A stretch of DNA of 32,036 nucleotides. It comes from Actinomycetes bacterium. Lineage in GTDB: Bacteria; Actinomycetota; Acidimicrobiia; Acidimicrobiales; Palsa-688. Location of the stretch: NCBI GenBank assembly GCA_021808785.1, contig JAKBAX010000015.1, positions 1-32,036 of the forward strand, written 5' to 3'. The position numbers and the translations under genes are program-made. This document shows, piece after piece, positions 7,145-26,940 of the stretch. A model generated the notes under the pieces. It did not search any database. It had not been told where the DNA came from and saw only the letters and a program-made list of their open reading frames with translations. Each line of letters opens with the position of its first letter. Within the stretch, counting starts at the first letter, position 1.

Positions 7145-7196
7145 CCCGCCATATTGATGTCAGACGACCATGGCGTCAATAGCGGGGGCGACCGCG

Positions 7197-7886
7197 TCAG
7201 CCGGCCTGTTGCTTCACCGCACCATCGGGTATCACGCCGCGGCGGGCCAGCTCTTCGATGACCTCCTCCGCGGTAGCCCGGGCCTCCGACCGGCGCAGCT
7301 CGGACGACCGGCGCTCGTCGCCCGCCTCGATGGCCTCGATCACCCGGGTGTGGGCCTCGACCATCTGGGCCACGGAGCGGCGGCTGCTGTTGCGCGCCGC
7401 CCAGTTGAGAAAGCCGTCGAAGCCGCGCAGCTCCGCCCGCAACCGGGGGGTGGCGCCGGCGCGGTGCTCGGTCCGCAGGATGTCGGTGGCCACCTCGTAG
7501 GCCCGGGCGGTGGCGTGGTCGGGCAGGGCGGCCAGCTCGGCCAGACCCTGCCGGAGCTCGGCGATGACCTCGGGATCGCGGTTGCGGGCGACCCGGGCCA
7601 CCGCCACTCCGCTCAGCATGCCGAGCACGTGGAAGTCCGCCCGCAGGGTGCGGGCGTCGAAGTGCTCGACCAGGGCCGAGCGGTGCACCCGGGTGGACAC
7701 GACCCCGTCGCGCTCGAGCAGGGTCAGGGCCTCGCGCACCGGGGTCGGGCTGACCCCGAGCGCGGCCGCCACCTGCTCGACGTCGACGCGGTCCCCCGGC
7801 CGCAGGCGGCCCTCGAAGATCTCCTGGACCAGGTGCTCGACGACGGCCCGGCTGGTCCTGGCCCGGCGCAGACCCGTGAGAGCCAT
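7197..7886 (-). CDS. GntR/FadR-type (FCD domain) transcriptional regulator
   Basis: This 229-residue regulator has an N-terminal winged helix-turn-helix of the GntR family: RPGDRVDVEQVAAALGVSPTPVREALTLLERDGVV, about residues 28-65. An all-helical C-terminal FCD effector domain follows. FCD proteins usually bind a small organic acid, often through a metal held by Asp/His residues. Here the last helix reads EAHTRVIEAIEAGDERRSSELRRSEAR, and the usual final His (as in RAHL) appears to be missing, so ligand binding may be metal-poor or altered. ATG 7886 is clear. It heads the leftward GntR-P450-TetR set and diverges from the amidohydrolase at 7992. The perfect 27-bp palindrome in the shared gap is the obvious candidate binding site. 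Confidence 0.92.
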   Translation of the reverse strand: MALTGLRRARTSRAVVEHLVQEIFEGRLRPGDRVDVEQVAAALGVSPTPVREALTLLERDGVVSTRVHRSALVEHFDARTLRADFHVLGMLSGVAVARVARNRDPEVIAELRQGLAELAALPDHATARAYEVATDILRTEHRAGATPRLRAELRGFDGFLNWAARNSSRRSVAQMVEAHTRVIEAIEAGDERRSSELRRSEARATAEEVIEELARRGVIPDGAVKQQAG

Positions 7887-7914
7887 TGCCTCAACATAGC
7901 GTCGGCCCGGTTTG

Positions 7915-7941
7915 CAATTTCCAATTTTCTATTGGAAATTG
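7915..7941. promoter_or_regulatory. Perfect 27-bp palindrome, candidate GntR operator
   Basis: CAATTTCCAAT and ATTGGAAATTG are perfect 11-bp inverted arms around a 5-bp spacer (TTTCT). This very AT-rich element stands out in GC-rich DNA and sits in the divergent gap between the GntR gene and the amidohydrolase. Its position and symmetry fit an operator for the adjacent GntR regulator acting on both promoters. A TATGTT hexamer (minus strand, 7893-7898) close to the GntR start may be its -10 box. Confidence 0.65.
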
Positions 7942-7980
7942 GGGGGCGGTGGCACCCGCCGGTGGGTGGCGCCGTGACGA

Positions 7981-7986
7981 GGAGGG
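7981..7986 (+). promoter_or_regulatory. Ribosome-binding site fixing the amidohydrolase start
   Basis: GGAGGG lies 5 nt upstream of GTG 7992. This places the true start far inside the 667-residue track ORF, whose first 274 codons run across the opposite-strand GntR gene and the palindrome. Confidence 0.65.
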
Positions 7987-7991
7987 ACCTG

Positions 7992-9173
7992 GTGTTGCAA
8001 CTGGCCGAGGGACTGCGGGTGGTGGATGCCGACTCCCACATGACGGAGCGTCACGACCTCTTCACCGAGCGGGCCCCGAAGGGGTTCGAGGACCGGGTGC
8101 CCCATGTCGAGCACATCGACGGGATGGACATGTGGGTGATCGAGGGCAAGAGCTTCGGCAAGGCCGGCTCCGGGGGCACCATCGACCCGGAGGGCCGCAA
8201 GCACCCGTTCCGCGATTCGCAGGGCGGGTCCTGGCAGATCGGCGACGTGCACCCGGCGGCCTGGGATCCGGCCGAACGGCTGCGGCTCATGGACAGCCTG
8301 GGCATCCACGCCCAGGTGCTCTTCCCCAACGCCATCGGCCTCGGTGGTCAGAACCTGGTCAACTCCGGGATCGACCCGACCCTCATCATGCTCTGCATCG
8401 AGCTCTACAACGATGCCATGGCCGAGGTGCAGGAGGAGTCGGGCGACCGCTTCCTGCCCATGCCCATCATGCCGGCATGGGACATCGAGGCCTGTGTCCG
8501 CGAGGCCGAGCGGTGCGCGGCCATGGGCTACCGGGGGGTCAACATGACGGCCGACCCCCAGGACTCTGGTTCACCCGACCTCGGCCACCCGGCGTGGGAC
8601 CCCTTCTGGGAGGTGTGTGCCGGCATGGACCTGCCGGTGCACTTCCACATCGGGGCCAGCCAGACGGCCCTGTCGTACTTCGGCACCACCTTCTGGCCCA
8701 GCCAGGACGATTACGTCAAGCCGGCCATAGGCGGGGCGTCGCTGTTCCAGAACAACTCCCGGCTCCTGCTCAACAGCGCCTACTCGGGCATGTTCGACCG
8801 CCACCCGGGCCTGAAGATGGTCTCGGTGGAGAGCGGCATCGGGTGGGTGCCGTTCATGCTCGAGGCCATGGATTACGAGCTGGAGGAGAACGCCCCGGAG
8901 TGGTTCCACAAGCTGCAGAAGCGGCCCTCCGAGTACTTCCGCGATAATTGGTTCGCCACCTTCTGGTTCGAGACCGGCCGGGGCGACCTGCAGCATCTCA
9001 TCGACGCCGTCGGCGAGGACAAGGTCCTGTTCGAGACCGACTTCCCCCACCCGACCTGCCTGCACCCCAACCCGGTGGAGATGGTGGCGGAGAAGGTCGC
9101 CACCCTGCGCCCGGAGACCCAGCGCAAGGTGATGGGCGAGAACGCGGCCCGGCTGTACCGCATCGACTCCTGA
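7992..9173 (+). CDS. Amidohydrolase 2 (ACMSD-like) metal-dependent hydrolase or decarboxylase
   Basis: This is an amidohydrolase-2 superfamily protein of about 393 residues, related to 2-amino-3-carboxymuconate-6-semialdehyde decarboxylase. Family members use a single metal in a TIM barrel for hydrolysis or non-oxidative decarboxylation of aromatic acids. Visible motifs are VVDADSHMTE near the N terminus (residues 10-18, with D14 and H16), the middle metal-His segment LPVHFHIGAS and the late catalytic Asp in LFETDFPHPTCLHPNP. Homologues of this subtype are common in actinobacterial clusters with P450s and CoA-transferases, where the substrate is unknown. I start it at GTG 7992 because of the GGAGGG 5 nt before it; TTG 7995 is also possible. 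It diverges from the GntR-P450-TetR set and is probably controlled with it through the shared palindrome. Confidence 0.9.
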   Translation: MLQLAEGLRVVDADSHMTERHDLFTERAPKGFEDRVPHVEHIDGMDMWVIEGKSFGKAGSGGTIDPEGRKHPFRDSQGGSWQIGDVHPAAWDPAERLRLMDSLGIHAQVLFPNAIGLGGQNLVNSGIDPTLIMLCIELYNDAMAEVQEESGDRFLPMPIMPAWDIEACVREAERCAAMGYRGVNMTADPQDSGSPDLGHPAWDPFWEVCAGMDLPVHFHIGASQTALSYFGTTFWPSQDDYVKPAIGGASLFQNNSRLLLNSAYSGMFDRHPGLKMVSVESGIGWVPFMLEAMDYELEENAPEWFHKLQKRPSEYFRDNWFATFWFETGRGDLQHLIDAVGEDKVLFETDFPHPTCLHPNPVEMVAEKVATLRPETQRKVMGENAARLYRIDS

Positions 9174-12180: not shown

Positions 12181-14715
12181 TCACTCTGGCCCGCCTTGCA
12201 CCCGGATACCGACTCGATGGGCGAGGTCGTCCGAGGCTCGCCCGATGAGCAGGTCGTAGTCACCCGGATCGAGCTGCCATCCGGTCGGTCTGGGGCCCGC
12301 CGGCTCGCCCTGGCCGGGCAGGAAGCTGATGGGCTGGCGAGCCCGGACCTCTTCGTAATCGGCCTGGCCCGGATCCCAGTAGGAGAACGACCGGCCGTCG
12401 AGGACCAGCTCCACCGTCGTCGACTGGCCGGCGTCGAGGCGGACCTTGGCAAAGGCCACCAGCTCCTTGGCCGGCCGCACCAGACGGGACTCTCGGGGGC
12501 TGACGTAGCACTGCACGACCTCGCTCCCCCGGCGAGCTCCGGTGTTGGTCACCTGGACCGTCACCGTGAGCTGTTCCCCGGCCCGCAAGACGGTGTTCGA
12601 CGGTGCCGGGGGGCCGATGTCGAAGCTCGTGTAGCTCAGCCCGTGGCCGAAGGCGAAGAGGGGGGTGATGCACCGGTGGTCGTAGCCCCGGTAGCCCATG
12701 AAGAGACCCTCGCCATAGCGCAGCTCCCCGTTCTCACCCGGGAAATTGTCGTAGGACGGGTTGTGCTCGAGCCGATGGGGGATCGTGGCCGCCAGCCGAC
12801 CGCCCGGCTCGGACCGACCCAACAGCACATCGACCACTGCGCGGTCCATCTCCTGCCCGCCGAACCAGCACTGCAGCACGGCCCCCACCTCGTCCACCCA
12901 TGGCATCGAGACCGGCGCCCCGGCATTGATCACGACGACGGTACGACGGTTGACAGCCGCCACCCGCGTGATCAGCTCGTCCTGGCGCCCCGGAAGCCCC
13001 AACGTGGTCCGGTCGCGCCCTTCGGTCTCCCATTCGGCCGTGGTACCGACGAAGACGATCGCCGCGTCACACTGCTCGGCCGCAATGACCGCTCGGTCGA
13101 GCAGCCGGTCGGCATCCACGGTCCGGAACCCGACCTTGAACCCGGCCAGCAGGGCTTCGTGGCGGTCGAACTCGACGACGATCTCGTAGGACCTACCCTC
13201 GATGAGGTCGAGCTCGGCGGTGAGATCCCTGCTGGCCATACCGAAGAAGTCGACCCCGCCCCCAGGCGGCGGGTCGGACACGCCGTCGAGCAGGAGGTCA
13301 CCGTCGAGGTAGACACGGGCCCGGCCGCTCTGGGCCAGGGCCAGCTCGAACCGGCCGCCCTCGTCGGCGACCACGGCCCCCCGCACCCGCATGCACCACG
13401 GTCCCTCGGGATACCCCTGTGCCATCGAGTTGAACGCGACCACCCTGAGCTCGTCGAGGTGGTGGGAGCTGTGCACCTGCCCCAGCGGCGACTGACCCTC
13501 GAAGACCTCCGCCACGAATCCGTCCGGGGCCCGCAGCACGTTCCGGCCGATCGTCGTAGCCGACCGGTCGACCTCGCATCCCCGCTCCAGCATCAGCTGC
13601 GCCTCCCCGACGGCGGCGGCCAGCGCGTCGCGGAACACGACCGGCCGGTGCGGCACCACTCCGGCGGAGCCACCGCCGACCATCTGACCATCCAGGGCGT
13701 GCATGCCGAGCACCGCGATGCGGTCGGACCCTGTAGGGGCCAGTGGCAGCACCCCGTCGTTGGTCAGCAGCACCGTGGCCTCGGCGGCGGCCCGCCGGAT
13801 CAGGCCGAGATCGTCGGGCGAGGGAGGATTCGGGGCCACTGGCTGGGTCGGGGCGTCGAGGGCCCCGATACGGTCCAGTCCGCCGAGCAACCGGCGCACC
13901 GCCTGGTCGAGATCCTTCTCCTCGACCCGGCCCTCCTGGATGGACTCGACCACCTTCGAGCCGAGCGATCGACCTGGACCGGGCATCTCCAGATCCAGGC
14001 CGGAGGCCAGGGACTCCCCGGCATTCACGACGGCGAACCAGTCGGTCATCACCAGACCCTCGAAGCCCCACTCGTCGCGCAGGATGTCGAGGAGGAACGA
14101 CGGCTGCTCGACCAACCAGCGGCCATTGAGCCGGTTGTAGGCGGTCATGATGCCGAGAGCCCGGCCCTCCCGAACCGCCATCTCGAACGGTCGCAGGTAC
14201 AGCTCCCGCAGCGAACGCTCATCGATGACCGAGCTGATCGAGTTGCGTTCGAACTCGGCATCATTACCCACAAAGTGCTTGACGGTGGCGAACACCCCCT
14301 CGGCTTGGACGCCGCGGGTGTAGCCGGCGGCCAGCTTCCCGGTCAGGAACGGGTCCTCCGAGTAGCACTCGAAGTTGCGCCCCGCGAGCGGGGAGCGCTG
14401 CAGGTTGACGGTCGGCGCCAGGATGCCGCGGCAGCCACGATCCAGTGCCTCGCGGCCTACCAGGCCTCCGAGCTCGGCCGCCAGATCGGGATCCCAGCTG
14501 GCCCCGATGGCCGACCCACAGGGGATGCACGTCGATGACGGACCCCCGATGCCGGGGTAGCTCTCGCCCCTTGCTCCAGAGGGGCCGTCGGTCACCCGCA
14601 CCTTCGGGATGCCGAGCCTCTCGACCGCGACCAGCGAGAACATGTCCTCTCCGGCGGTGAGAGACGCCTTCTCCTCCAGGGTCAAAGACGCCATGAGCGC
14701 ATCGATATCTGCCAT
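12181..14715 (-). CDS. GH3 beta-glucosidase with PA14-like insert and Fn3-like C terminus
   Basis: This 844-residue glycoside hydrolase family 3 enzyme removes non-reducing beta-linked glucose (or related sugars) with retention. The N-terminal TIM barrel has GPSGARGESYPG, the substrate-binding KHFVGND segment and the nucleophile in VMTDWFA (D225). The C-terminal sandwich begins near 305 (AAAEATVLLTNDGVLPL). It is interrupted at about 395-535 by a PA14-like beta domain (FELALAQSGRARVYLDGDLLLDG), then resumes with the acid/base candidate TEGRDR (E565). The Fn3-like tail is VTVQVTNTGARRGSEVVQCYVSP. PA14-bearing GH3 enzymes often act on aryl or natural-product glucosides. There is no signal peptide, so it is probably cytoplasmic. 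GGAGG lies 6 nt before the ATG. It follows the LivHMG fusion gene by 25 bp and is probably the last gene of the transporter operon. Confidence 0.96.
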   Translation of the reverse strand: MADIDALMASLTLEEKASLTAGEDMFSLVAVERLGIPKVRVTDGPSGARGESYPGIGGPSSTCIPCGSAIGASWDPDLAAELGGLVGREALDRGCRGILAPTVNLQRSPLAGRNFECYSEDPFLTGKLAAGYTRGVQAEGVFATVKHFVGNDAEFERNSISSVIDERSLRELYLRPFEMAVREGRALGIMTAYNRLNGRWLVEQPSFLLDILRDEWGFEGLVMTDWFAVVNAGESLASGLDLEMPGPGRSLGSKVVESIQEGRVEEKDLDQAVRRLLGGLDRIGALDAPTQPVAPNPPSPDDLGLIRRAAAEATVLLTNDGVLPLAPTGSDRIAVLGMHALDGQMVGGGSAGVVPHRPVVFRDALAAAVGEAQLMLERGCEVDRSATTIGRNVLRAPDGFVAEVFEGQSPLGQVHSSHHLDELRVVAFNSMAQGYPEGPWCMRVRGAVVADEGGRFELALAQSGRARVYLDGDLLLDGVSDPPPGGGVDFFGMASRDLTAELDLIEGRSYEIVVEFDRHEALLAGFKVGFRTVDADRLLDRAVIAAEQCDAAIVFVGTTAEWETEGRDRTTLGLPGRQDELITRVAAVNRRTVVVINAGAPVSMPWVDEVGAVLQCWFGGQEMDRAVVDVLLGRSEPGGRLAATIPHRLEHNPSYDNFPGENGELRYGEGLFMGYRGYDHRCITPLFAFGHGLSYTSFDIGPPAPSNTVLRAGEQLTVTVQVTNTGARRGSEVVQCYVSPRESRLVRPAKELVAFAKVRLDAGQSTTVELVLDGRSFSYWDPGQADYEEVRARQPISFLPGQGEPAGPRPTGWQLDPGDYDLLIGRASDDLAHRVGIRVQGGPE

Positions 14716-14740: not shown

Positions 14741-17581
14741 TCAGGTTGCGACGCGGGAGCTGTCGCTCCGGGTGATGGCCCGCTCGTCGGTGCCGAGATA
14801 GCTGGCGATGACCCGGGGATCGTTGCGCACCTGCTGCGGGTCGCCTTCGGAGATGATCTGACCCGCCTCGAGGCAGTAGACCCGGTTGCTGATCGCCATG
14901 ATGAAAGGCATGTCGTGCTCGATGACCAGCATCGAGGCGCCCAGTTCCCGCCGGATCTCCACTAGGAGCGGTCCGAACGCCTCGGTCTCGCGCTGGGCCA
15001 CCCCGGCGGTCGGCTCGTCCAGGCAGAGCACCCGGGCCGACATGGCGACAAGCCCGGCCATCTCGACGATTCGGCGCGTGCCCGTCGACAGGTCGCTCAG
15101 ATAGTGCTCGGCGTAGCGACCGAGCCCCAGGAAGGTCAGGATCTCCGATGTCTCGGCCCGTTGGGCCCGCTCGGCTCGCACCTGGTGGGGCAGGACCAGC
15201 GCGGTGGAGAGCAGACCGGTACGCCGGCGGGATTCGAGGGCGACCTGGACCGTCTCGCGCACGGTGAGCTCGGGGAAGAGCCGAGCGGCCTGGAAGGTGC
15301 GGCCGAGACCGCGGCGGGCCCGTCCCTCGGGGGAGGTGTGCGAGACATCCTCGCCCAGCAGCTCGACCCGACCCCGGGCCGCAAGGAAGCCTCCGATGGC
15401 GTTCATGAGGGTGGACTTGCCCGCCCCGTTGGCCCCGATCAGACCGACGATCTCGTCACCGGCGATGCGGATGGACACCCCACCGACGGCGGTCAGGCCG
15501 CCGAAACGCACTTCCACGGTGTCCGTCGCCAGGGCGTCGCTCCCCGGCTCCAGCGGCGCGGCGCGTCCGCGGGCGAGTGCGGATGCCACGGCGGGGGGCT
15601 TCGTGGTGGCCGTGGCCGGTACCCGGGGGCCCGCCCAGTCGATGACCGCCTCGCGGAGCCGGTAACCGACGCCGACCAGCCCGGTCGGGAAGTAGAGGAG
15701 CAGCAGGAGGAGGCCGAGGCTCGACGTGAGCAGCCCGACCAGCGCGTTGGTCGGGTCGAAGGCAGGCAGCCCCACGATCCAGAGCGCGCCGAGGACCGGA
15801 CCGGTCGTCGAACCCAGCCCACCGATGACCACCAGGGAGATCAGCGCCAGCGAGTCGGTGACCTGAAACTTCTCCGCGAAGTCCACCTGCTGCACCACTC
15901 CGGCGAAGAGGGCACCACCGAGCCCGGCCAGCGCACCCGCCAGCGCAAATGCCTGCACCTTGACCCGGGCCGGCGACACGGTGTATGCCGCCGCGCTCTC
16001 CGGATTATCCCTGACCGCGATCATGGCCCGACCCACTCCGGACCGGCGCAGTCTGGCCACCAGGACGAGGACCAGGATCAGGACCACCAGAACGGCGTAG
16101 TAGTAGGAGCGCTCGGAGCCCAACGACAGGCCGAACAGCCGGCCCCGGGGGAACAGTTCGCTTCCCTGCGCGTGACCGTTGAGGACCGGCCGGTTGTAGA
16201 AGTACTCCTCCGCGGCCAACCCGAATGCAAAGGTGGAAACGGCCAGCAGGAGACCGCGCACGCGCAGCGATCCCACGCCGATCACCACCGCCAGCAGCGC
16301 CGTCACCACCACTGCGATGGCGATCGAAACCCAAAACGGCTCGCCTGTGAAGGCAGTGTTGATGATCCGGGTGCTCCCCCAGCCGATGTCGAGCGACATC
16401 CCCTGCCGGAGGCTGGCCGCCAGGAGGGCCCCGATACCGGCGAAAGCCATCTGGCCCAGCGACACCTGACCGGACCAGCCGGTGAGGACCGTGAGCGAGG
16501 TTCCGCAGATGGCGAAGGCCAGGACGAAGGCGTAGGTCTGGATCCTCGACGGCTCGGTCACCACCAGCGGAAGCATCACTGCGACCACAGTCAGTACCAG
16601 CACACCGGAGCGGTCCAGGAGGCGCATCCACCAGAGCCCCCTGAGATGTTCCGGTACCGGCCGGCGCTTGGGGGAGAAGGCGAACTGGTGGACGCCCTCC
16701 GACGTGTCCCGGCTCTGGAACCAGACCGCGATCAATACACCGACGAGGACCAGGACGTCGATGAGACCGGGCGTGTTGAGGTAGTTGAAGCCGATGAGGG
16801 AATCGGCCAGCTCGATGACGACCGCCGCCACCAGCGTCCGGCGGAAGGACCTCATGCCGCCGATCACCGCTGCGGCCAGGGCTCGGACCAGGGTGTCGGG
16901 CCCGAAGTTGGTGATGGTGCCGGCCGTACCGGTCGTACCGGCAACCAGGATGAGCGCGACCGAAGACAGCAACCCGGCGATGCCCCAGACCATCGTGGAT
17001 ACCAGCTTCGGGTTGACACCCGAGAGCCGGGTCAAGTCGCTGTTGCTGGCCGATGCCTTCACCGTCTTGCCTACGTCGGTGCGGGCCAGGAACCACGAGA
17101 GGGCGAGCATGGCGAGCGGGGCGACGACGATGATCGATATCTGGGGGCCGCCGATCTGCAGACCCCCGACGCTCCAGGTGCTGCCCAACGGCACCGGGAA
17201 CCGGGCGCTGCCGTCGGACACGGAGGGGTAGGCCGTGGCCACGGTGAGGGCCAGCTGGGAGATGCCGATGGTGGCCACCAGGACGATTACCCGGGGCGCG
17301 TTGAACAGCCGGCGGATGACGGCGAGCTCGACGATGACCGCGAATACCGTGCCGACCGTCAGCGCCACCGGGAGGGACACCCAGAACGGGACGTGGTACT
17401 GCACGTCCATGAGCGCCAGCAGGCCGGCGGCCACCACGCCCATGTTGCCGACCGCGAAGTTGATGACACGGGTGGCGCGGAAGATCAGGACTATGCCGAT
17501 GGCCAGCAGACCGATCCCCAGACCGTTGATCAGACCGTTGAAGACGACCTGCTTGGTGATCCACGCGGAAGCGAGCAGCAT
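14741..17581 (-). CDS. LivH-LivM-LivG triple-fusion ABC importer subunit
   Basis: A single polypeptide of 946 residues joins three proteins that are normally separate in branched-chain-amino-acid-type (HAAT) importers. Residues about 1-290 are the LivH permease (GLINGLGIGLLAIGIVLIF, TRVINFAVGNMG, AAVIGGMRS). About 325-640 are the LivM permease (TGWSGQVSLGQMAFAGIGA, AVRDNPESAAAYTVSPARVK, VVIGGLGSTTGPVLG). About 685-946 are the LivG ATPase, with Walker A GANGAGKST, a degenerate signature LSTGTRR, Walker B VLCLDEPTAGV and switch His VIEHDM. The start is ATG 17581, one base after the upstream stop (TGA-C-ATG), with GAAGGAGG 5 nt before it; the track start lies 11 codons upstream inside the preceding gene. 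The partner LivF ATPase lies in the preceding gene. The linkers (about 290-325 and 640-685) are Pro/Ala/Arg-rich. Confidence 0.95.
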   Translation of the reverse strand: MLLASAWITKQVVFNGLINGLGIGLLAIGIVLIFRATRVINFAVGNMGVVAAGLLALMDVQYHVPFWVSLPVALTVGTVFAVIVELAVIRRLFNAPRVIVLVATIGISQLALTVATAYPSVSDGSARFPVPLGSTWSVGGLQIGGPQISIIVVAPLAMLALSWFLARTDVGKTVKASASNSDLTRLSGVNPKLVSTMVWGIAGLLSSVALILVAGTTGTAGTITNFGPDTLVRALAAAVIGGMRSFRRTLVAAVVIELADSLIGFNYLNTPGLIDVLVLVGVLIAVWFQSRDTSEGVHQFAFSPKRRPVPEHLRGLWWMRLLDRSGVLVLTVVAVMLPLVVTEPSRIQTYAFVLAFAICGTSLTVLTGWSGQVSLGQMAFAGIGALLAASLRQGMSLDIGWGSTRIINTAFTGEPFWVSIAIAVVVTALLAVVIGVGSLRVRGLLLAVSTFAFGLAAEEYFYNRPVLNGHAQGSELFPRGRLFGLSLGSERSYYYAVLVVLILVLVLVARLRRSGVGRAMIAVRDNPESAAAYTVSPARVKVQAFALAGALAGLGGALFAGVVQQVDFAEKFQVTDSLALISLVVIGGLGSTTGPVLGALWIVGLPAFDPTNALVGLLTSSLGLLLLLLYFPTGLVGVGYRLREAVIDWAGPRVPATATTKPPAVASALARGRAAPLEPGSDALATDTVEVRFGGLTAVGGVSIRIAGDEIVGLIGANGAGKSTLMNAIGGFLAARGRVELLGEDVSHTSPEGRARRGLGRTFQAARLFPELTVRETVQVALESRRRTGLLSTALVLPHQVRAERAQRAETSEILTFLGLGRYAEHYLSDLSTGTRRIVEMAGLVAMSARVLCLDEPTAGVAQRETEAFGPLLVEIRRELGASMLVIEHDMPFIMAISNRVYCLEAGQIISEGDPQQVRNDPRVIASYLGTDERAITRSDSSRVAT

Positions 17582-17582
17582 G

Positions 17583-19796
17583 TCAGCCTCCTTCGCGGCC
17601 GAGGAACACCGCACGGGCCAGGTCGTCCCGGTCCACCAGCTGCTTGATCGGCCCGTCGAAGAGCACCCGCCCCTTCTCCATGAAAACGGCCCGATCGCTG
17701 ATCGACGCCGCGACGTTGAGTGACTGCTCGACCACGATGATGGTCATACCGTCGGCCTTCAGCCGCTCGACCACCCTGATCAGCTCCTGGACGACAATGG
17801 GGGCCAGCCCGAGCGACAGCTCGTCGATGATCAGGACCTCGGGGTCGTGCAGGAGGACCCGTCCGAGGGCCAGCATCTGCTGCTCCCCGCCCGACATGGA
17901 CCCGGCCAGGGCGTCCCGGCGGGCCGAGAGCGTCGGGAACAGCTCGAAGACCCGGTCCATCCGCCGGCGCCGGTCCGGGGCATCGGAGCGGTAGATGAAC
18001 GATCCCATCTCCAGGTTCTCCGTGACCGTCATCTCGGGAAACACCCCCTTGCCTCCGGGGAGGAGCTGGATGCCCAGGCGCACGCGCTGCTCGGGCGACA
18101 CGAACGTGATGTTCTGCCCGTTCAAGCGGATCACGCCACGAGACGGAGTGCCGAGCCCGGCCACTGCTCGCAGGACGGTCGACTTGCCCGCTCCGTTGGT
18201 GCCGAGGAGGGCCAGCACCTCGCCGCGATGCACTTCACAGCTGACGTCGAAGAGGACCTGGACCTGCCCGTAGGAGTAGTCGACATGACTCACCTGGATC
18301 ACGGGCACGCTCTGCGGGTCCGCCTTCTGACGCTCGTACTCGACAAGCTCCTCCCTCAGTTCCCCCACGACCAGCGAGAGGTCGTTGCGGATGAAGCGGG
18401 AACTGCGGACGATCAGCCCCCCGCCGATGATCGTCGAGGGGATGATGATGGTGAGGATCGCCACCCGTACGTTGAACATGCTCGTCAACAGTGCGGACAA
18501 AAGGGCGCCCCCGGTCGCGCCGATGAAGAACGTGTACACCGAGCCGACCGCACTGCCTATCCCTCTCAGCCGGTACGGCACGACCGACTGCAGCACCGCC
18601 CCCATCACGTAGTAGGAGGGGATCATCAACATGGTCTGGGGGATGGCCAGCGCCGTGAACAGGTAGATGTTCGGCATGAAGTACTGGACCGGCGTCAGTA
18701 CCGCGGCCGGCATCAGGGTCATCCCGATGAGGCGGAGGGCCCGGGCCGGGTCCTCGCGGTAGAGGCGGTCGTAGTACCGGCCGATGAATGGCAGCACCAC
18801 CAGCGCGCCCAGTCCCCCGATGGTGCCGACCAGCCCCCGCTTGAAGGTGTCGAGGTGGAAGTGGTCCTGGAGGAACAGGTTGCCCAGGATCGGCACGGTG
18901 AAGAGCCCGAAACCCAGTGCGGAGAAGGCCATGATGGTCGTCTTCAGCGTCTTGATCTGCAGGATCCGGGCGAACCCGGCCTCGATCGAGGAGGGCACGG
19001 GCTTGTCGTGGTGCACCACCTCACCCAGTACGTGCATCATTTCGTTCTGGCCCCGGGGCGGCTCCGGCAGCCGGAAGGCCAGGATTCCGACCACTGCCAC
19101 CGGCAGGCCCAGCATCACGAAAGCCCATCTCCATCCCGACCCTCCGCCGATGCTGGCGACGGCACCGACCAGAAGAGGGCTGAGCGCGCCGAGCACGCTG
19201 GCAACGAAGCCGTTGGTCGCGGCGATGCGGCCCCGGACCCCGATCGGGTAGGCGTCGGCCATGAGGGCGCTGCTCACTGGACCGGTGCTCGACTGCGCCA
19301 CACCCGCGCCCAGGCGGGCCCAGAAGAACATGAACACATTGACCGCGAGCCCCGAGAAGACCGACATGACCGAGAAGATGAGCGCCGAGATGCCGAGTAT
19401 CCGGCCCCGCGGGTAACGATCGGCCAGCCAGCCCATCGGCAGCGCCCCCACCACGAGGAACGCGCCGGATGCCGACGTGACGAACACGATCAATCCGTTG
19501 CTGACGTGGAAGCTCTGGCGCAGGTTGGGAGAGAGGATCGACAGGGCCGGCAGCTGGAACAGGTCGAGCGAGAAGAGCAGCAGGCACACGACGAAGGTGC
19601 CCTTACCGTGCTGGGCCAGCCCTTGGGCGAGCGTGATGTCTTCGGCCCCGACTCCTGGTAGGAGATCGTCGGCGAAGAGCACCTCCTTGGCGTCGGCCGC
19701 CTGGCGGGACTCGCGCTCGGCCTCGGCGTCGAGCACGGTCCGGACCAGGTCCGCCGCAGCCGGATCCGGGCCCCCCCGGTCACCGGTAGTGAACAC
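17583..19796 (-). CDS. MFS permease fused to LivF-type ABC ATPase
   Basis: This is a 737-residue hybrid. After an acidic, helical cytosolic leader (about 1-60) comes a major-facilitator permease of about 12 helices (about 64-465), with motif A GWLADRYPRGRILG (122-135) and the equivalent half-repeat loop FIGRYYDRLYREDPAR. A charged linker (about 466-498) joins it to a complete LivF-type ATPase (about 499-737): Walker A GTNGAGKST (about 532-540), signature MSGGEQQ (about 634), Walker B VLIIDELSLGL (Leu replaces the usual Pro) and the Gln switch VEQSLN typical of LivF. The reading frame is unbroken, so this is a true fusion. It supplies the second ATPase for the LivHMG fusion encoded 1 nt downstream. 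The MFS half may add proton-driven transport or a membrane anchor. The GTG start lies 5 bp after the substrate-binding-protein stop. Confidence 0.94.
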   Translation of the reverse strand: MFTTGDRGGPDPAAADLVRTVLDAEAERESRQAADAKEVLFADDLLPGVGAEDITLAQGLAQHGKGTFVVCLLLFSLDLFQLPALSILSPNLRQSFHVSNGLIVFVTSASGAFLVVGALPMGWLADRYPRGRILGISALIFSVMSVFSGLAVNVFMFFWARLGAGVAQSSTGPVSSALMADAYPIGVRGRIAATNGFVASVLGALSPLLVGAVASIGGGSGWRWAFVMLGLPVAVVGILAFRLPEPPRGQNEMMHVLGEVVHHDKPVPSSIEAGFARILQIKTLKTTIMAFSALGFGLFTVPILGNLFLQDHFHLDTFKRGLVGTIGGLGALVVLPFIGRYYDRLYREDPARALRLIGMTLMPAAVLTPVQYFMPNIYLFTALAIPQTMLMIPSYYVMGAVLQSVVPYRLRGIGSAVGSVYTFFIGATGGALLSALLTSMFNVRVAILTIIIPSTIIGGGLIVRSSRFIRNDLSLVVGELREELVEYERQKADPQSVPVIQVSHVDYSYGQVQVLFDVSCEVHRGEVLALLGTNGAGKSTVLRAVAGLGTPSRGVIRLNGQNITFVSPEQRVRLGIQLLPGGKGVFPEMTVTENLEMGSFIYRSDAPDRRRRMDRVFELFPTLSARRDALAGSMSGGEQQMLALGRVLLHDPEVLIIDELSLGLAPIVVQELIRVVERLKADGMTIIVVEQSLNVAASISDRAVFMEKGRVLFDGPIKQLVDRDDLARAVFLGREGG

Positions 19797-19801
19797 TCGG
19801 T

Positions 19802-21136
19802 TCAGCTCGCCACATGGGAGTCGAAGGCCTCCTTGGCGCTGTTCCAGTCGTAGATGACGATCGGTGCATTGCCGTCGTGGTACTGAGCGCTGAAGGTCAT
19901 GGGCCCGGCCGCACCGGATCCCGGGATGACGACGTTCTTCAACGACTCTCCCCCCGCGTTGAACGTCTGGTTGTCGAGGTTGTGGCCTGCAGCTCTGAGG
20001 ATGTCCTCGAGCAGCGTGATGTTGGTGCAGGCCTGCTCGGCCGACACCCAGGTAGCCGGCTGCTTGGTCTGGTTGGCCGCGGTGGGGACGATGACCGGCT
20101 CACTCGGATGGGCGGCGCTGATCAAGGCCGCGCAGCGCGCCATCCCCGCTCCCTGCCAGGCCGCCACGTTGTCCTCGCTGCCGAGCGCGGTGACCGCACC
20201 GTTCAGTACGGCCGGCTCGTATCCGCCCTTGCCGGTGATCCAGGCGTACAGAGAATCCCACTCGGTGGCCACCAGCTTCGGGAGGTAGGTGCTGTGGTTG
20301 GCCTGGAGGGATGCCGGCCAACCCTGCGAGGCCGATTCCCCGACCGCCACCACGGCCGTCGCTCCGGCGGACTGGAATTTGAGGCCGATCGTGGCGTATT
20401 CGCGGTAGGCGGCGCTCACGTCGGTCGGGCTCACGTCGTTGATGGCCGTCTGCACCACGTCCACCCCGAGCTTCTTCAGCTCCGGCAGGACCAGGCCCAT
20501 CTGGGACTGGTCGGCGGCGGCCGCCACCACCGCGACCTTCTGGCCCTTGAAGACGCCCTCCTTTTCGAACACGTCCATCTCCTTCGGGAAGAGGTGGCCG
20601 GGGGTGAGGGTGGTGGTAAACCAGGTGCCTTTCTCGGCCGCCTGCTGGGCCGGGCTCAGAGACGCCCCGGTGGCCGGGCCGCCGATGATGTTGACTCCGT
20701 GGGTGTCGAGGTAGCAGAGCGGATCAGTGCCGTTGAAGAAGCCCAGCACGACAAAGACGTGGTCGTCCTCGGTGAGCTGGGTGCAGGCCTGGGCCGCCGG
20801 AGCGGTGCCGATCGGGTTGACCGGCGCGAAATAGAGCTGGATCTTGCGCCCGTCGATCCCACCCTTGGCGTTGATGTCGTCGACCAGGGCCTGGTAAGAG
20901 GTGCGGAAATCACCCTGGTCGATGTTGACTACGTTCCGGATGGCGGAGAAGTCCACGTAGGTGACCCCGACCCGGATGCTCGACGAGGTGACACCCTGCG
21001 CCGGTGATGGCGCGCTCGGCACCGATGATCCCGTGGTCGAACCGCTCGTGGCCTTCGGTGTCGTCTTCGTGGAGCACCCGGCGAGCAGCCCGATGCCGGC
21101 GACGAGGACCATACCGACGGTCGATATCTTTCGCAC
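19802..21136 (-). CDS. HAAT-family substrate-binding lipoprotein (LivK-like)
   Basis: This 444-residue periplasmic-binding-protein type I (Peripla_BP_6) lipoprotein would capture the solute outside the membrane for the two fused transporter proteins encoded downstream. The N terminus RKISTVGMVLVAGIGLLAGC is a lipoprotein signal with lipobox LLAGC (Cys21). It is followed by a Ser/Thr/Pro-rich tether and then IRVGVTYVDFSAIRNVVNIDQGD, the first strand of the fold. VDDINAKGGIDGRKI is a hallmark of this family. The GTG start with a basic n-region is preceded by GGGGGGAAGG. It lies 31 bp after the dioxygenase and 5 bp before the MFS-LivF gene. HAAT receptors bind amino acids but also amides, aromatic acids and other organic compounds; the ligand here is unknown, and a glycoside or aglycone is inferred from context only. 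Confidence 0.94.
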   Translation of the reverse strand: MRKISTVGMVLVAGIGLLAGCSTKTTPKATSGSTTGSSVPSAPSPAQGVTSSSIRVGVTYVDFSAIRNVVNIDQGDFRTSYQALVDDINAKGGIDGRKIQLYFAPVNPIGTAPAAQACTQLTEDDHVFVVLGFFNGTDPLCYLDTHGVNIIGGPATGASLSPAQQAAEKGTWFTTTLTPGHLFPKEMDVFEKEGVFKGQKVAVVAAAADQSQMGLVLPELKKLGVDVVQTAINDVSPTDVSAAYREYATIGLKFQSAGATAVVAVGESASQGWPASLQANHSTYLPKLVATEWDSLYAWITGKGGYEPAVLNGAVTALGSEDNVAAWQGAGMARCAALISAAHPSEPVIVPTAANQTKQPATWVSAEQACTNITLLEDILRAAGHNLDNQTFNAGGESLKNVVIPGSGAAGPMTFSAQYHDGNAPIVIYDWNSAKEAFDSHVAS

Positions 21137-21167: not shown

Positions 21168-22424
21168 CTACAGGTCGAAGTTCGCCAGACGGGCGCTCGA
21201 AGCCCGGTCGGTGCCGTGGCGGTCCAGGACGTGGTCGTTGAGCACCGCCCGCTGGCGGCGGATCTCGGCTTCGTCGACGACGACCGGCCGGTCGCCGTCC
21301 CTCGGGGCCAGGCCGAAGCCGGTGTAGACGACGCGACGTTCGGCGGAGACCGGCGGGCGGCTCATGTGCAACGTGCACGAGCAGTGCACGGTCAGATCGC
21401 CGGTCGTGGTCGGCAGCGGCAGCCGGGGCAGATCGAGTCCCTCGATACCGAGCGCCGCCACGTTGGCCCGGTGCGAGCCTGCCACCACCCCGAGCTCGCC
21501 GTTCTCCCGGCGGGCTCCGGTCACCGATATCCCGACCGTGAGCCCGCAGCACCCCCGGCTGTGGCCCCCCATGGCGCAGTCCTTGTGCCAGCTGACGTCG
21601 GAAATGCCTTCAGTGACGCCGACCTTCTTGAGCAGGCCTTCGGCGGAATCGCCGTGATCGGGCGGACGCTGCACGTAGACGTCGTCGGTGAATGTACCGA
21701 TCCGGCGGAAGCGGTCGCGGCCGAGCAGCTCCCGCAGGGACGCGGACTTCTGGTTGAAACCGAGGATGCGGGAGGCGTACCACTCCCCCGCCTCGGTACA
21801 GGCCCACCACGAGGCACCGTCGTCGCGTCGGGCCGCGGCGATGGCCCGGTCCAGATCGGCGGAAACGGCGGCCATCTCCTCTTCGGTGAAGACGCCGGCG
21901 ATGTGGAGGAAGCCGGCCTCGGCCAGGAAATGGCCGATCTCCTCGTCGGAGTCGTCGAGGGTGAAGGAGCGCCGCAGATCCAGAGGTGAGCCGTCTTTGG
22001 CCCGGAGCTCGATGCTGCCCGGCTCGTATACCGGCCGGCCGTCCAGGAAGGTCCGCAGCACCGGTTCCCACCCGATGAAGTCGTCTACCGAACCCTCGAC
22101 TATGCGGGCTCGGCCGGTCATCTGGAGCCCGAAGGTGGACGCCGTGTCCTGGAGCAGCTCTGCCAGGCCGACCCGGTCCATGCTGGCGACGAGCGGGGCG
22201 TTCCCGCCGGAGGAGACCCCGAGCGCCGATCCGTTCCTCGCGAAAGTGATCCTTTCCCCCTCTACCTCCAGGGTGAGGGGGGGCAGTCCATAGCGCGACA
22301 TCCCGGCGGCGGCGTCGGATCCGTGGAGGTCGATCAGTCGGGGGCCGTCTTCGGCCACGAAGGCCGCGGGGTCCACCGGGGCCGGGGCGTCACGCAGCCG
22401 GGTCCGGAAATCCACACTGACCAT
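21168..22424 (-). CDS. PhyH-family Fe(II)/2-oxoglutarate dioxygenase with extra N-terminal domain
   Basis: This 418-residue protein has a C-terminal phytanoyl-CoA-dioxygenase-like double-stranded beta-helix (about 155-395). The iron facial triad is WHKDC (H280, D282) with distal H353 (CTLHMSRPP), and Arg364 (ERRVVYTGF) is a candidate 2-oxoglutarate clamp. The family hydroxylates fatty acyl-CoAs, terpenoids, alkaloids and other natural products. The first about 150 residues are not part of the usual PhyH fold. Residues about 50-130 (GERITFARNGSALGV ... GLQMTGRARIVEG ... LRTFLDGRPVYEPG) have a strand/helix order that reminds me of SCP2 sterol-carrier domains; this is inference and not certain. 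GGAGG lies 6 nt before the ATG. The gene sits 34 bp after TetR and 31 bp before the binding lipoprotein, which ties an oxidation step to this import operon. Confidence 0.88.
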   Translation of the reverse strand: MVSVDFRTRLRDAPAPVDPAAFVAEDGPRLIDLHGSDAAAGMSRYGLPPLTLEVEGERITFARNGSALGVSSGGNAPLVASMDRVGLAELLQDTASTFGLQMTGRARIVEGSVDDFIGWEPVLRTFLDGRPVYEPGSIELRAKDGSPLDLRRSFTLDDSDEEIGHFLAEAGFLHIAGVFTEEEMAAVSADLDRAIAAARRDDGASWWACTEAGEWYASRILGFNQKSASLRELLGRDRFRRIGTFTDDVYVQRPPDHGDSAEGLLKKVGVTEGISDVSWHKDCAMGGHSRGCCGLTVGISVTGARRENGELGVVAGSHRANVAALGIEGLDLPRLPLPTTTGDLTVHCSCTLHMSRPPVSAERRVVYTGFGLAPRDGDRPVVVDEAEIRRQRAVLNDHVLDRHGTDRASSARLANFDL

Positions 22425-22458: not shown

Positions 22459-23052
22459 TCATGCCAATGCCTCTGTGGCCGCGGCCAGGGCGCGCCGTAG
22501 GCGGGACCGCTGGGGCAGCGGTAGTCCCACCGCCTCTTTCAGCCCGATACCGCCCTGCAAGTAAGTGATGACCCACGCCGCGGTGTCCGGGTCGGTCGAC
22601 TCCGACGCCGCCTCGGTGATGCGCTTGTGCCGATCGAGATAGAACTCGGCCAGCCCGGCCGCCACGTCGGGGTCGTGCCGGGCCGCCGCGGCCGCGTCGA
22701 CCTCGAGGAGGCGGATGTCCCGGCTCCGGGCTTCGAACATCAGCTCCACACCCTCTTCCGGGACCGCGCTGGCCCGTTCGAAGTCGATCGTCTGATCCCG
22801 CTCCGCGATGAGCCACCGGATCACCTCGACCAGCAGCTGACCCTTGGAGCGGAAGTGACCGTACAGAGCGCCTTTGGTCAGGTCGGCCGCCGCCGCGATG
22901 TCGCGCATCGAGACGGCGTGGAACCCCCGCTCGACGAACAGCTCGGCGGCCGAGCCCATCAATCGGACGCGGGTCCTCGCCGCCTTTGGGGTCCGCGGCG
23001 GAGCTGGAACGAAGGCCTGGTGGGCCATTCGTCGGATTTGCACGTCAGCCAC
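22459..23052 (-). CDS. TetR-family transcriptional regulator of the transporter operon
   Basis: This is a TetR regulator with a full N-terminal DNA-binding domain: AARTRVRLMGSAAELFVERGFHAVSMRDIAAAADLTKGALYGHFRSKGQLL. An all-helical ligand domain follows. The track start at 23073 is a TTG. GTG 23052 follows GGGGGGGA by about 5 nt and is preferred; ATG 23028 is also plausible and would still keep the whole HTH. It is the first gene of the leftward TetR-PhyH-lipoprotein-MFS/LivF-LivHMG-GH3 run and diverges from the GH78 rhamnosidase. It probably represses both directions through the inverted repeat at 23110-23130 and is released by a substrate-derived ligand (inference from the usual TetR logic). 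Confidence 0.92.
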   Translation of the reverse strand: MADVQIRRMAHQAFVPAPPRTPKAARTRVRLMGSAAELFVERGFHAVSMRDIAAAADLTKGALYGHFRSKGQLLVEVIRWLIAERDQTIDFERASAVPEEGVELMFEARSRDIRLLEVDAAAAARHDPDVAAGLAEFYLDRHKRITEAASESTDPDTAAWVITYLQGGIGLKEAVGLPLPQRSRLRRALAAATEALA

Positions 23053-23109
23053 CTGGTCCCCCCCATCCGCCAAGGCCGCGGATCAAACGCCGATAATCGA
23101 CTCAGGGTA

Positions 23110-23183: not shown

Positions 23184-25694
23184 ATGCAGACAGGCACTCG
23201 GGCGACTGCGGTCCGATCGACGTGGCCCGGTTCGCTGATCACGGCTTCGATCAGCCACCGCGACGAGGGGCGGCCGGCGCCGTACTTCCGCAAGGAGCTC
23301 CTGATCGGACCCGGGGTACGGCAGGCCACCCTGCAGTACACGGCCCTGGGGCTCATCGAAGCTTTCCTCAACGGCAGCCGGGTCGGCGACGAGGTGCTGT
23401 TCCCGGGGTGGACCTCGTACGACCACCGCCTGATGGTGAGCTCCCACGACGTGACCGATCTGCTGCGCGACGGCGCCAACACGCTGGGCGCCATCGTCGG
23501 CGATGGCTGGGCCGTGGGGCGGCTCGGTTGGGACGGCCGTCGGGCCTACTGGAGTGACCGGCCGGCGGCCTACATGCAGCTGGTCCTCGAATACCCCGAT
23601 CGTACCGAGGTGGTGGTCACCGACGAGTGCTGGCGCGTCGCCACCGGAGGCATACGGGCCGACTCGATCTACGACGGCGAGACCTACGACGCCCGCCTGC
23701 ATCCTCGCGGCTGGGACCAGCCCGGCTTCGACGATTCGGCCTGGGAGCCGGCCCGGGCCCTGGACTGGGACCTGTCGCGGCTCGAGCTCCCCGAAGCTCC
23801 GGCCATCCGGCGGGTGGAGGAGGTCCCGGTGCGGGAGCTGATCAGGACCCGCCACGGCCGGACCGTCGCCGATTTCGGGCAGGTCCTCACCGGATGGGTC
23901 CGCATCTCGGTGGCCGGCCCGGCCGGAAGCGCCATCACTCTGCGCCACTGCGAGCTGATGGTCGACGGAGAGCCCGAGTTCGAGTCGAACCGGACGGCCG
24001 AGGCCACCGACCGGTACATCCTCAGAGGCGGCGGGCGCGAGACATGGGAGCCTCGATTCACCTTCCACGGGTTTCGCTACGTCGAGATCGACGGATGGCC
24101 CGGAGATCTCGATCCAGGCGACCTGGTAGCAGTGGTCGTGCACTCCGACCTGACCCGGACCGGTTGGTTCGAGACGTCCGATGAGCAGATCAACCAGTTG
24201 CACCGCAACGTGGTGTGGTCGTTTCGGGGCAACGCCGTCGGTGTGCCGAGCGACTGTCCTCAGCGCGACGAGCGTCTGGGCTGGACCGGCGACATAAACG
24301 CCTTCGCCGCCACCGCCGGGTTCCTCTTCGACGTGCGCACCTTCCTCGGGTCCTGGCTGGTGGACCTGGCGGCCGAGCAGGAAGCGTTGGGCGGGGTACC
24401 CATGGTCGTACCGGACGTCCTGAGCCAGGGCGGCGCGCCCAACACGCCCACCGCGCTCTGGGGTGACGTGGCCGTCAGCCTCCCCTGGACCTTGTACATG
24501 GAGTACGGCGACCCCGAGGTCCTGCGCCGGCAGTACCGGTCGATGAAGGCTTTCGTCGAGTCCGTCCTCCCCCTCCTGGACCGCAGCACCGGCTTGTGGA
24601 CGGGATTCCAGCTCGGGGACTGGCTCGATCCCACCGCGCCCGGCGGCGATCCGGCCAAAGCCAAAGCCGAGGCCACCCTGGTCGCCAACGCCTACCTCTG
24701 CCGGTCCCTGGACCAACTCGCAGCGAGCGCCGACATTCTCCGCCGCCCAGAGGACGAGGCCTGGGCCAGGAGCATCAGGGCTCGTGTGGTGGAGGCGTTC
24801 CGCCACGAGTGGGTCGCTCCATCGGGGCGGCTGGCCAACGAATCGCAGACGTCGTACGCACTGGCCATCTGCTTCGGACTGCTCGACGACGGGCAGGTGG
24901 CCCGCGCCGGCCAGCGGCTGGCCGACCTGGTGACCAAGGCCGGTCTGCACATCGGAACCGGCTTCGCCGGCACGCCGTGGCTGCTCCCGGCCCTATCCTC
25001 GAGTGGCCAGCTCGAGACCGCGTACCGGCTCCTGCTGCAGGTCACGCCTCCTTCGTTCCTCTACCCCGTGACCATGGGGGCCACCACTGTCTGGGAACGC
25101 TGGGACGCCGTCCTACCCGACGGACGGCTCAACTCCACCGGCATGACTTCTCTCAACCACTACGCGTTGGGGGCCGTGGCCGACTGGCTCCACAAGGTGG
25201 TCGGCGGCATAGAAGCAGCCGAGCCCGGCTACCGGCGGGTGCGCATCGCGCCGCGTCCCGGCGGCGGCCTGACCTCCGCCCGCGTCGCGCACGACAGCCG
25301 CCATGGCCGCATCTCAGTGGAGTGGACCACTCACGAGGGGCAGCGCACCGTCGGGGTGGCGCTGCCCGATGGCATCTGCGGCGAGGTGACCCTGCCCGGG
25401 CACCCGGAGGGGCGGACCGAGCAGGTGGAGGGCGGCGATCACCAATGGACCTACGGGATCCGGTCCGAAGTGTGGGCCTACAACCTCGATACCCCGCTCG
25501 AGGTCCTCCAGGCCGACACCGCGGCATGGGAGCGGGTGGTCGCCGCCTTCAGTCGGGCCGATTCGCGGGCGGTGGACCACATGGGCTACCTGATCCGGCG
25601 ATATCCCACGCTGCGGGCCATCCTCGACGAGCTGATGAGCGGGGACCGCTCGGCGGATCTCCAGATGGAGCTGGTCAAGGCCCTGGAGGGCTGA
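23184..25694 (+). CDS. GH78 alpha-L-rhamnosidase
   Basis: This 836-residue inverting glycoside hydrolase of family 78 releases terminal alpha-L-rhamnose. It has the N-terminal beta domains (YFRKELLI, LFPGWTSYDHRLM), the linker domain with ADFGQVLTGWV and the (alpha/alpha)6 barrel from about 325. The barrel carries the catalytic signature DCPQRDERLGWTGD (predicted general acid E363) and the base motif GATTVWERWD (E638), followed by a C-terminal beta domain. The last about 75 residues (from YGIRSEVWAYN to the end) form a helical extension beyond the usual GH78 end. No signal peptide is visible, so it is probably cytoplasmic. GGGAGGG lies about 6 nt before the ATG. It is divergent from the TetR-transporter operon, and its end overlaps the convergent GH1 gene by 20 bp. 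Confidence 0.96.
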   Translation: MQTGTRATAVRSTWPGSLITASISHRDEGRPAPYFRKELLIGPGVRQATLQYTALGLIEAFLNGSRVGDEVLFPGWTSYDHRLMVSSHDVTDLLRDGANTLGAIVGDGWAVGRLGWDGRRAYWSDRPAAYMQLVLEYPDRTEVVVTDECWRVATGGIRADSIYDGETYDARLHPRGWDQPGFDDSAWEPARALDWDLSRLELPEAPAIRRVEEVPVRELIRTRHGRTVADFGQVLTGWVRISVAGPAGSAITLRHCELMVDGEPEFESNRTAEATDRYILRGGGRETWEPRFTFHGFRYVEIDGWPGDLDPGDLVAVVVHSDLTRTGWFETSDEQINQLHRNVVWSFRGNAVGVPSDCPQRDERLGWTGDINAFAATAGFLFDVRTFLGSWLVDLAAEQEALGGVPMVVPDVLSQGGAPNTPTALWGDVAVSLPWTLYMEYGDPEVLRRQYRSMKAFVESVLPLLDRSTGLWTGFQLGDWLDPTAPGGDPAKAKAEATLVANAYLCRSLDQLAASADILRRPEDEAWARSIRARVVEAFRHEWVAPSGRLANESQTSYALAICFGLLDDGQVARAGQRLADLVTKAGLHIGTGFAGTPWLLPALSSSGQLETAYRLLLQVTPPSFLYPVTMGATTVWERWDAVLPDGRLNSTGMTSLNHYALGAVADWLHKVVGGIEAAEPGYRRVRIAPRPGGGLTSARVAHDSRHGRISVEWTTHEGQRTVGVALPDGICGEVTLPGHPEGRTEQVEGGDHQWTYGIRSEVWAYNLDTPLEVLQADTAAWERVVAAFSRADSRAVDHMGYLIRRYPTLRAILDELMSGDRSADLQMELVKALEG

Positions 25695-26940
25695 GGGCGT
25701 TGCCCCGCGCCACCTGGCCCAACCAGCGGGCCGAGGGCTTGACCGTGCGGGCGAAGGTCTCGGGATCGAAGGAGATGAGCCCGAACGTCTTGGCATAGCC
25801 GGCCGTCCACTCGAAGTTGTCCAGCAGGCTCCAGTGGAGGTAGCCCCTGACGTCGATGCCGGCCTCGATGCACGCAGCCAGGCCCTCGAGTGCGCCGTGG
25901 GTGTACACGATCCGGGCCCGGTCGTCGTCGGTGGCCATCCCGTTCTCCGTCACCAGCACCGGCACCTGGGCCCGCTCGGCGGCCAATGCCACGGTGTGAC
26001 CGAGGGCCGGAGGGTAGACCTCCCAGCCCGTCTGCATCGTCGGCGCGTCCTCGCCCGGAGGAATCTGGCCCTCGGGACCGAGCACGGTGCGGGAATAGGT
26101 CTGCACCCCGACGAAGTCGTCGTCCCGGGACACGTCCAGCCAGTCCTCTTCACCGTGGCGACGCGCCCGGCGGCAGCGCTCCTCGCCCCCGGGGCCCGAT
26201 TGCAGGTCGATGAGGGCGAGAGTCCAACCGACCTTCTGCCGACCTGGACCGGACTTGATCTCGGTCACCGCCCGCCGATGGGCTTCGGCCATGTGATCGA
26301 GGTCGGCGCTGCTCAGACCGGGGCGGTATCGGGCCGGGTCGTGGCCCCCGACGCCGCTCGGTTCGGACCCGGCCGCGCCCGGGGCGGCCCGGTCGCTGGT
26401 ACCCATCGGGATGACCCCGGTGTGCTCGAGCAGGGACATGACGTTCGGCTCGTTGAGCGTGCACACCCACTCCACCAGGTCGCCCACGTGCCGGGTGAGA
26501 CGAGCCGCGTAGCGGGCGAAGTGATCCGCGGCGGTCTCCGAGGCCCATCCGCCCTGGCCCGCCATCCATCTGGGCAGGGTGAAGTGGCTGTAGCTCACCA
26601 CCGGGGTCACCCCGCTCTCCAGGCAGGTCGAGATCATACGGCGGTAGTGCTCCAACGCGGCCCGGGAGAAGAAGCCCGGTTCGGGTTCGATGCGCGACCA
26701 CTCGATGGAGAAGCGGTAGGCGTTGAGCCCGACCTCCCGCAGGAGCGCGATGTCTTCGGCGTAGCGGTGGTAGTGGTCACACGCGTCGCCCGACGGCTCG
26801 GTGAAGTGGGTCTCGGCGCCCCATTCCACCGGCCACAGATCGGCGTTGACGTTACCGCCCTCCACCTGATGGCCCGCGGTGGAGGCTCCCCACAGAAAGC
26901 CGGCGGGAAACGCACCACCTCGGGTGTGGGTTGGCGACAT
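25675..26940 (-). CDS. GH1 beta-glucosidase
   Basis: This 421-residue retaining glycoside hydrolase of family 1 acts on beta-glucosides, often also beta-galactosides or beta-fucosides. It shows the N-terminal GFLWGASTAGHQVEG, the acid/base motif TLNEPN (E164), the nucleophile motif LVTENG (E332) and the C-terminal glycone-binding segment HWSLLDNFEWTAGYAKTFG. The length is slightly short but complete. There is no signal peptide. The ATG follows GGAGG by 8 nt and lies 3 bp after the Gfo/Idh/MocA stop, so the two are one transcript. It differs from the GH3 enzyme in fold and operon, which suggests two beta-linkages or two regulatory conditions. Its end overlaps the GH78 gene on the other strand by 20 bp. 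Confidence 0.96.
   Translation of the reverse strand: MSPTHTRGGAFPAGFLWGASTAGHQVEGGNVNADLWPVEWGAETHFTEPSGDACDHYHRYAEDIALLREVGLNAYRFSIEWSRIEPEPGFFSRAALEHYRRMISTCLESGVTPVVSYSHFTLPRWMAGQGGWASETAADHFARYAARLTRHVGDLVEWVCTLNEPNVMSLLEHTGVIPMGTSDRAAPGAAGSEPSGVGGHDPARYRPGLSSADLDHMAEAHRRAVTEIKSGPGRQKVGWTLALIDLQSGPGGEERCRRARRHGEEDWLDVSRDDDFVGVQTYSRTVLGPEGQIPPGEDAPTMQTGWEVYPPALGHTVALAAERAQVPVLVTENGMATDDDRARIVYTHGALEGLAACIEAGIDVRGYLHWSLLDNFEWTAGYAKTFGLISFDPETFARTVKPSARWLGQVARGNALSPPGP

Follow-up and report, generated by a model that had tools for sequence, protein, structure and literature searches.

Primary and secondary transporters are commonly regarded as distinct classes. The locus described here lies on an actinobacterial contig of 32,036 nucleotides (JAKBAX010000015.1; this whole stretch of analyzed DNA is referred to as the window), and encodes a HAAT-type importer laid out as two chains, one of which incorporates an MFS carrier. 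It raises the question of whether the two chains act as a single machine, and of what the MFS domain contributes to it.

Gene organization and domain identity

The minus strand from 17581 to 14741 reads as one frame from ATG to TGA (946 codons, with no internal stops), and Pfam places two BPD_transp_2 stretches, an ABC_tran domain and a BCA_ABC_TP_C domain in its product, bearing out an earlier note on this DNA which claimed that LivH, LivM and LivG are encoded as a single 946-residue chain. The same interval (14741–17581) read on the plus strand falls in a different frame with an early stop, and the coding strand is thus the minus strand. The mechanically called reading frame begins at a GTG located 11 codons upstream of the ATG, within the 3′ end of the preceding gene; the ATG is the better start. 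Within this protein (LivHMG), the LivH permease domain corresponds to approximately residues 10–290 (16712..17554, minus strand) and the LivM permease domain to approximately residues 317–653 (15623..16633, minus strand, assigned from the best BPD_transp_2 stretch), with modelled helices in both; the LivG ATPase domain comprises approximately residues 681–933 (14783..15541, minus strand). Comparison with E. coli LivG identifies its Walker A (GANGAGKS), Q-loop (RTFQ), signature (LSTGTRR), Walker B (LDEPTAG) and H-loop (IEHD) motifs.

The adjacent gene on the same strand (17583..19796, GTG start) encodes a 737-residue protein, MFS-LivF, with MFS_1 and ABC_tran domains. Its carrier domain spans approximately residues 64–465 (18402..19607, minus strand; MFS_1 E-value 2.8e-33), with conserved landmarks at an acidic residue in TM1 (D78) and in motif A (A125-D126-R127..R130). 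The LivF ATPase domain (approximately residues 499–733; 17598..18302, minus strand), for which the best solved relative is 1ji0, contains a Walker A sequence of GTNGAGKS, a Q-loop of PGGK, a signature of MSGGEQQ, a Walker B sequence of IDELSLG and an H-loop of VEQS. The best NCBIfam matches are LivG and UrtD for the LivHMG ATPase, UrtB, LivM and UrtC for its permeases, and UrtE and LivF for the MFS-LivF ATPase, all of them under equivalog cut-offs.

The two genes belong to a run of five on the minus strand. A PhyH-type dioxygenase, identified with Pfam (21168..22424), is followed by a substrate-binding lipoprotein (SBP; 19802..21136) with an LAGC lipobox and a Peripla_BP_6 domain, then by MFS-LivF, LivHMG and finally a GH3 glycosidase with a PA14 insert and no evident signal peptide (12181..14715). 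The successive gaps are 31, 5, 1 and 25 bases; together with the shared direction, they are consistent with a single transcript. A TetR-family regulator (22459..23073, minus strand) lies upstream of the run, and the neighboring genes include a divergent GH78 alpha-L-rhamnosidase (23184..25694, plus strand) and a GH1 family glycosidase (25675..26940, minus strand). All HAAT-type parts are present at the locus (a permease pair, a LivG-type and a LivF-type ATPase, and the Peripla_BP_6 lipoprotein). The earlier description of an importer cut down to a lipoprotein and two giants agrees with these frames and domains, as well as with the recurrence of the pair elsewhere (see below), and the fusion does fix the ratio of LivH to LivM to LivG, at 1:1:1.

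AlphaFold2 monomer models, computed from alignments of 47–48 relatives, reached a mean pLDDT of 85.1 and a pTM of 0.85 for LivHMG, and of 84.8 and 0.78 for MFS-LivF. In the latter model the membrane part extends to approximately residue 465 and is connected by a helix (residues 469–492) to the ATPase, which begins at residue 499; the membrane part is a bundle of helices in which motif A lies in the loop between TM2 and TM3, as expected of an MFS protein. Foldseek matches were to ATPase domains, chiefly LptB and 1ji0, and because these dominated both searches they carry little information on the permeases or the MFS domain. A PDB search with the LivH-LivM region alone as query returned no solved sequence relative.

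Distribution and history of the fused architectures

LivHMG stands beside MFS-LivF in at least 81 distinct loci after removal of duplicates among the fetched loci. The remaining fetched loci comprised 18 with LivHM and an MFS-LivF-LivG fusion (type B), six with MFS-LivF, LivHM and a separate LivG, and 10 that were incomplete. Matches to MFS-LivF occur in 27 of 61 near relatives at a threshold of 1e-60, which also lets in some stand-alone LivF proteins, and in 80 of 296 genomes of the class and 19 of 397 of the phylum at a threshold of 1e-80. A scan of GTDB contigs gave at least 588 confirmed stretches, of which the best 80 were kept.

The hosts of MFS-LivF loci are soil and water actinobacteria, mostly Acidimicrobiia, with additional isolates of Frankiaceae, Embleya, Yinghuangia and Jiangella (among them Frankia nepalensis, Parafrankia colletiae, Embleya scabrispora, Yinghuangia seranimata and Jiangella muralis). 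The pair is also found on a complete Embleya replicon, a plasmid whose record carries no gene calls over this stretch, and in Embleya sp. NBC_00888 both giants, the binding protein and a GH3 gene are adjacent. The pairing of the two fusions, described earlier as striking, is thus real but not singular, being standard in a clade that includes Acidimicrobiia, Frankiaceae, Embleya and others. A mirror-tree comparison of the MFS-LivF and LivHMG proteins gave r = 0.92 over 67 loci (none of 2000 permutations as high), a correlation that may reflect only an operon travelling as a unit. With 81 loci and this correlation, the paired architecture recurs far beyond chance. Among titles and abstracts of the open-licence literature, searches that also covered the substrate yielded no account of MFS-LivF or LivHMG fusions; in annotation, fused proteins of this kind can easily pass for plain LivG, LivF or MFS proteins.

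Hosts titled Bifidobacterium or Terriglobia are metagenome bins that may be mislabelled or contaminated; for two loci from bins titled Bifidobacterium breve (L103 and L118), both bearing the system, the title is probably wrong or the contig a contaminant. In some genomes, frames of 1700–1900 residues around MFS-LivF resemble a five-domain mega-fusion. Domain placement rejects this reading, since the extra length is a long in-frame upstream extension that overlaps the LivHM gene in another frame.

The rearranged HAAT clade takes several forms: MFS-LivF with LivHMG, LivHM with MFS-LivF-LivG, and, in the absence of an MFS domain, a one-chain HMFG, LivHM with LivFG, and LivF with LivHMG. In a tree of LivF domains, the MFS-fused forms group with these three MFS-less forms; the presence or absence of the MFS domain changes five times on that tree, in which many deep branches are weak. 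The fused MFS domains fall on one side of a branch with a support of 99 against 13 free MFS proteins, a narrow sample drawn mostly from the host genome. The simplest reading of these trees is that the MFS domain was recruited once and subsequently lost in places, and a single origin is probable.

The host genome itself encodes other rearranged HAATs. Contig C506 (L054, 3878–6688) carries a second LivHMG fusion, of 936 residues, next to LivF, and contig C229 (L056, 4742–8092) carries a 1116-residue LivH-LivM-LivF fusion next to LivG, both without an MFS domain; a further arrangement is LivHM with LivFG. The C506 protein groups with ordinary HAATs on the LivF tree, and its fusion appears to be independent of that in the window. 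Fusion of LivHMG is not tied to the MFS domain, and some relatives go further, with the entire HMFG core in one chain. Seven loci (L177, L181, L183, L185, L186, L187 and L188) show this MFS-less form, in mechanically called frames of 1245–1382 residues.

ATPase sites, MFS domain and candidate substrate

ABC ATPases form a head-to-tail sandwich. Motif positions set by alignment to E. coli LivF and LivG reveal a one-sided pattern in this clade. The LivF Q-loop residue is glycine in 131 of 133 clade members (115 of 117 from loci with an MFS domain, and all 16 from MFS-less loci), while it is glutamate in E. coli LivF and in all eight ordinary LivF proteins of the host. The clade LivF nevertheless retains an intact signature (SGG[QE]) and catalytic glutamate. 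Its H-loop residue is glutamine; part of the asymmetry is ordinary, because that glutamine is shared with E. coli LivF. In the clade LivG, the Q-loop glutamine, the catalytic glutamate and the H-loop histidine are intact, and the signature reads LSTG[TSM] throughout the MFS loci. The site composed of the LivG Walker A and the LivF signature looks canonical, whereas the site composed of the LivF Walker A and the LivG signature looks degenerate, because it has neither the Q-loop side chain nor the H-loop histidine. We infer that one site may carry most of the hydrolysis; with the LivF Q-loop side chain lost across the clade, this would then be a natural importer in which one ATP site alone may fire.

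Purifying selection on the MFS domain resembles that on the permeases. Across 113 pairs of related loci, the median dN/dS is 0.24 for MFS, 0.276 for LivH, 0.241 for LivM, 0.161 for LivG and 0.14 for LivF (pairwise counts from pairs that are not independent and in which dS is often high). Most members of both architectures retain the acid at position 78 in TM1, as well as D126, R127 and R130 of motif A. The closest NCBIfam model is the aromatic acid/H+ symporter model TIGR00895 (66.9 bits against a cut-off of 418.55), and the closest named subfamilies, at scores far under their cut-offs, import aromatic acids and galactonate with proton coupling. Taken together, these features are good evidence that the MFS domain is functional, and weak evidence as to its direction of transport or substrate.

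The genes around the operon encode GH3, GH78 and GH1 glycosidases, a GFO/IDH/MocA oxidoreductase, two P450s, amidohydrolases, a CoA-transferase and PhyH. Judging by the neighboring GH3, GH78, GH1 and P450 genes, the substrate may be plant-type glycosides, and the lack of an evident signal peptide on the glycosidases (their N-termini judged by eye) suggests that glycosides are imported intact. GH3, GH78, GH1 or GH2 genes lie near 12 of 48 close loci and near none of 19 type B loci, for which the available stretches are shorter. Because three quarters of the close loci have none of these families nearby, a glycoside substrate could apply to no more than a sub-clade, and it is a lead for the sub-clade of the window and not for the whole family.

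The window as a whole holds a dense catabolic run for glycosides or secondary metabolites (33–27918), including two amidohydrolases, a type III CoA-transferase and a TetR regulator. Within it, a 667-residue frame (7170–9173) matches Amidohydro_2 in its C-terminal half only, the first 350 residues having no Pfam match.

Proposed mechanism and comparison with known systems

We consider it somewhat more probable than not that the two giants form a 1:1 complex, a HAAT-type ABC importer with a probably working MFS carrier. LivHMG would supply the permease pair and one ATPase, and MFS-LivF the other ATPase, joined by its short helix to an MFS carrier placed beside the permease. The lipoprotein would pass substrate to LivH and LivM, LivF would close against LivG upon ATP binding, and hydrolysis would probably occur mainly at the site formed by the LivG Walker A and the LivF signature, the opposite site, with its LSTGT signature, being degenerate. 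The MFS domain would probably transport in its own right, expressed together with the importer and situated next to it, and would move a related substrate or a breakdown product. At the locus in the window the cargo would probably be a plant-type glycoside, cut in the cytoplasm by the GH3, GH78 and GH1 enzymes. A more tightly integrated version, which we hold only tentatively and regard as rather unlikely, is a physically integrated ABC and MFS hybrid with two active paths that use a common ATPase subunit and operon and are linked mechanically or kinetically; ATP might, for example, drive glycoside import while the MFS path exchanges its product.

The role of the MFS domain is where the principal alternative lies. 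The complex might be an ordinary fused HAAT in which that domain does not transport but serves as a scaffold or regulator, placing LivF or sensing the state of the membrane or substrate. The MFS-less relatives with the same ATPase motifs, which imply that the importer can do without the domain, speak for this, as does the faster sequence divergence of the MFS domain than of the ATPases; on the other hand, a mere anchor would need neither the permease-like dN/dS nor the retention of motif A and the TM1 acid in both architectures, and we regard this possibility as real but clearly the less probable one. Somewhat less probable again than either the scaffold or the hybrid is gene fusion with function unchanged, in a lineage that fuses HAAT genes in many ways (three of them in the host genome alone); fusion by itself would entail neither the Q-loop and signature changes specific to this clade nor the constraint on the MFS domain.

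Each chain does combine a membrane part with one complete ATPase domain, and the two could in principle be separate machines, with an MFS-LivF homodimer in which ATP aids the MFS carrier and a LivHMG homodimer formed through LivG. In such a LivF homodimer, neither site would have a Q-loop side chain or an H-loop histidine. The one-chain HMFG relatives in the same LivF clade indicate that LivF and LivG domains of this kind belong to one transporter, and type B joins MFS, LivF and LivG while leaving LivH-LivM apart; two independent machines are thus very improbable. Joint action of the two ATPases is supported by the one-chain relatives and by the way the motif changes in LivF are matched by changes in LivG. 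That adjacent genes were joined by assembly collapse or in a chimeric contig, the refuting possibility named in the earlier note, might be suspected since the window comes from a fragmented genome of 538 contigs; the presence of the same frames in independent assemblies, in isolates and in single-contig genomes excludes it for practical purposes.

What sets this system apart from plain subunit fusion is the joining of an MFS carrier to an ABC importer, together with the one-sided pattern of its ATPases. A widespread fusion of an MFS carrier to an ABC ATPase, apparently of single origin, provides a direct test bed for the sharing of an energy source or substrate between the two transporter classes.

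Like E. coli LivKHMGF, the system consists of a binding protein, two BPD_transp_2 permeases and LivG and LivF ATPases. The E. coli importer is encoded by five genes, whereas the window encodes two polypeptides plus the lipoprotein; the LivF Q-loop residue is glutamate in E. coli and glycine here, the LivG signature is LAYGDQR in E. coli and LSTGTRR here, and only the protein in the window carries an MFS domain on LivF. Separate subunits are an organizational and not a defining mechanistic trait of HAATs, other fused forms existing, and an acidic LivF Q-loop residue is a usual HAAT trait without established family-defining status. The one-chain HMFG and LivHM with LivFG systems of the same bacterial order share the LivF clade and the ATPase motifs, but differ in the absence of the MFS domain and in the order and division of their domains. 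The 18 type B loci share the position of the MFS domain directly before LivF, with MFS domains probably of one origin, and differ in carrying LivG on MFS-LivF rather than on LivHM. The families of TIGR00895, DgoT (D-galactonate) and MhpT, the best subfamily matches of the MFS domain, have the aspartate and arginine of its motif A as well; the position of the DgoT TM1 aspartate is occupied in the alignment by a glutamine of the protein in the window, and in contrast to MFS-LivF these families have no ATPase attached.
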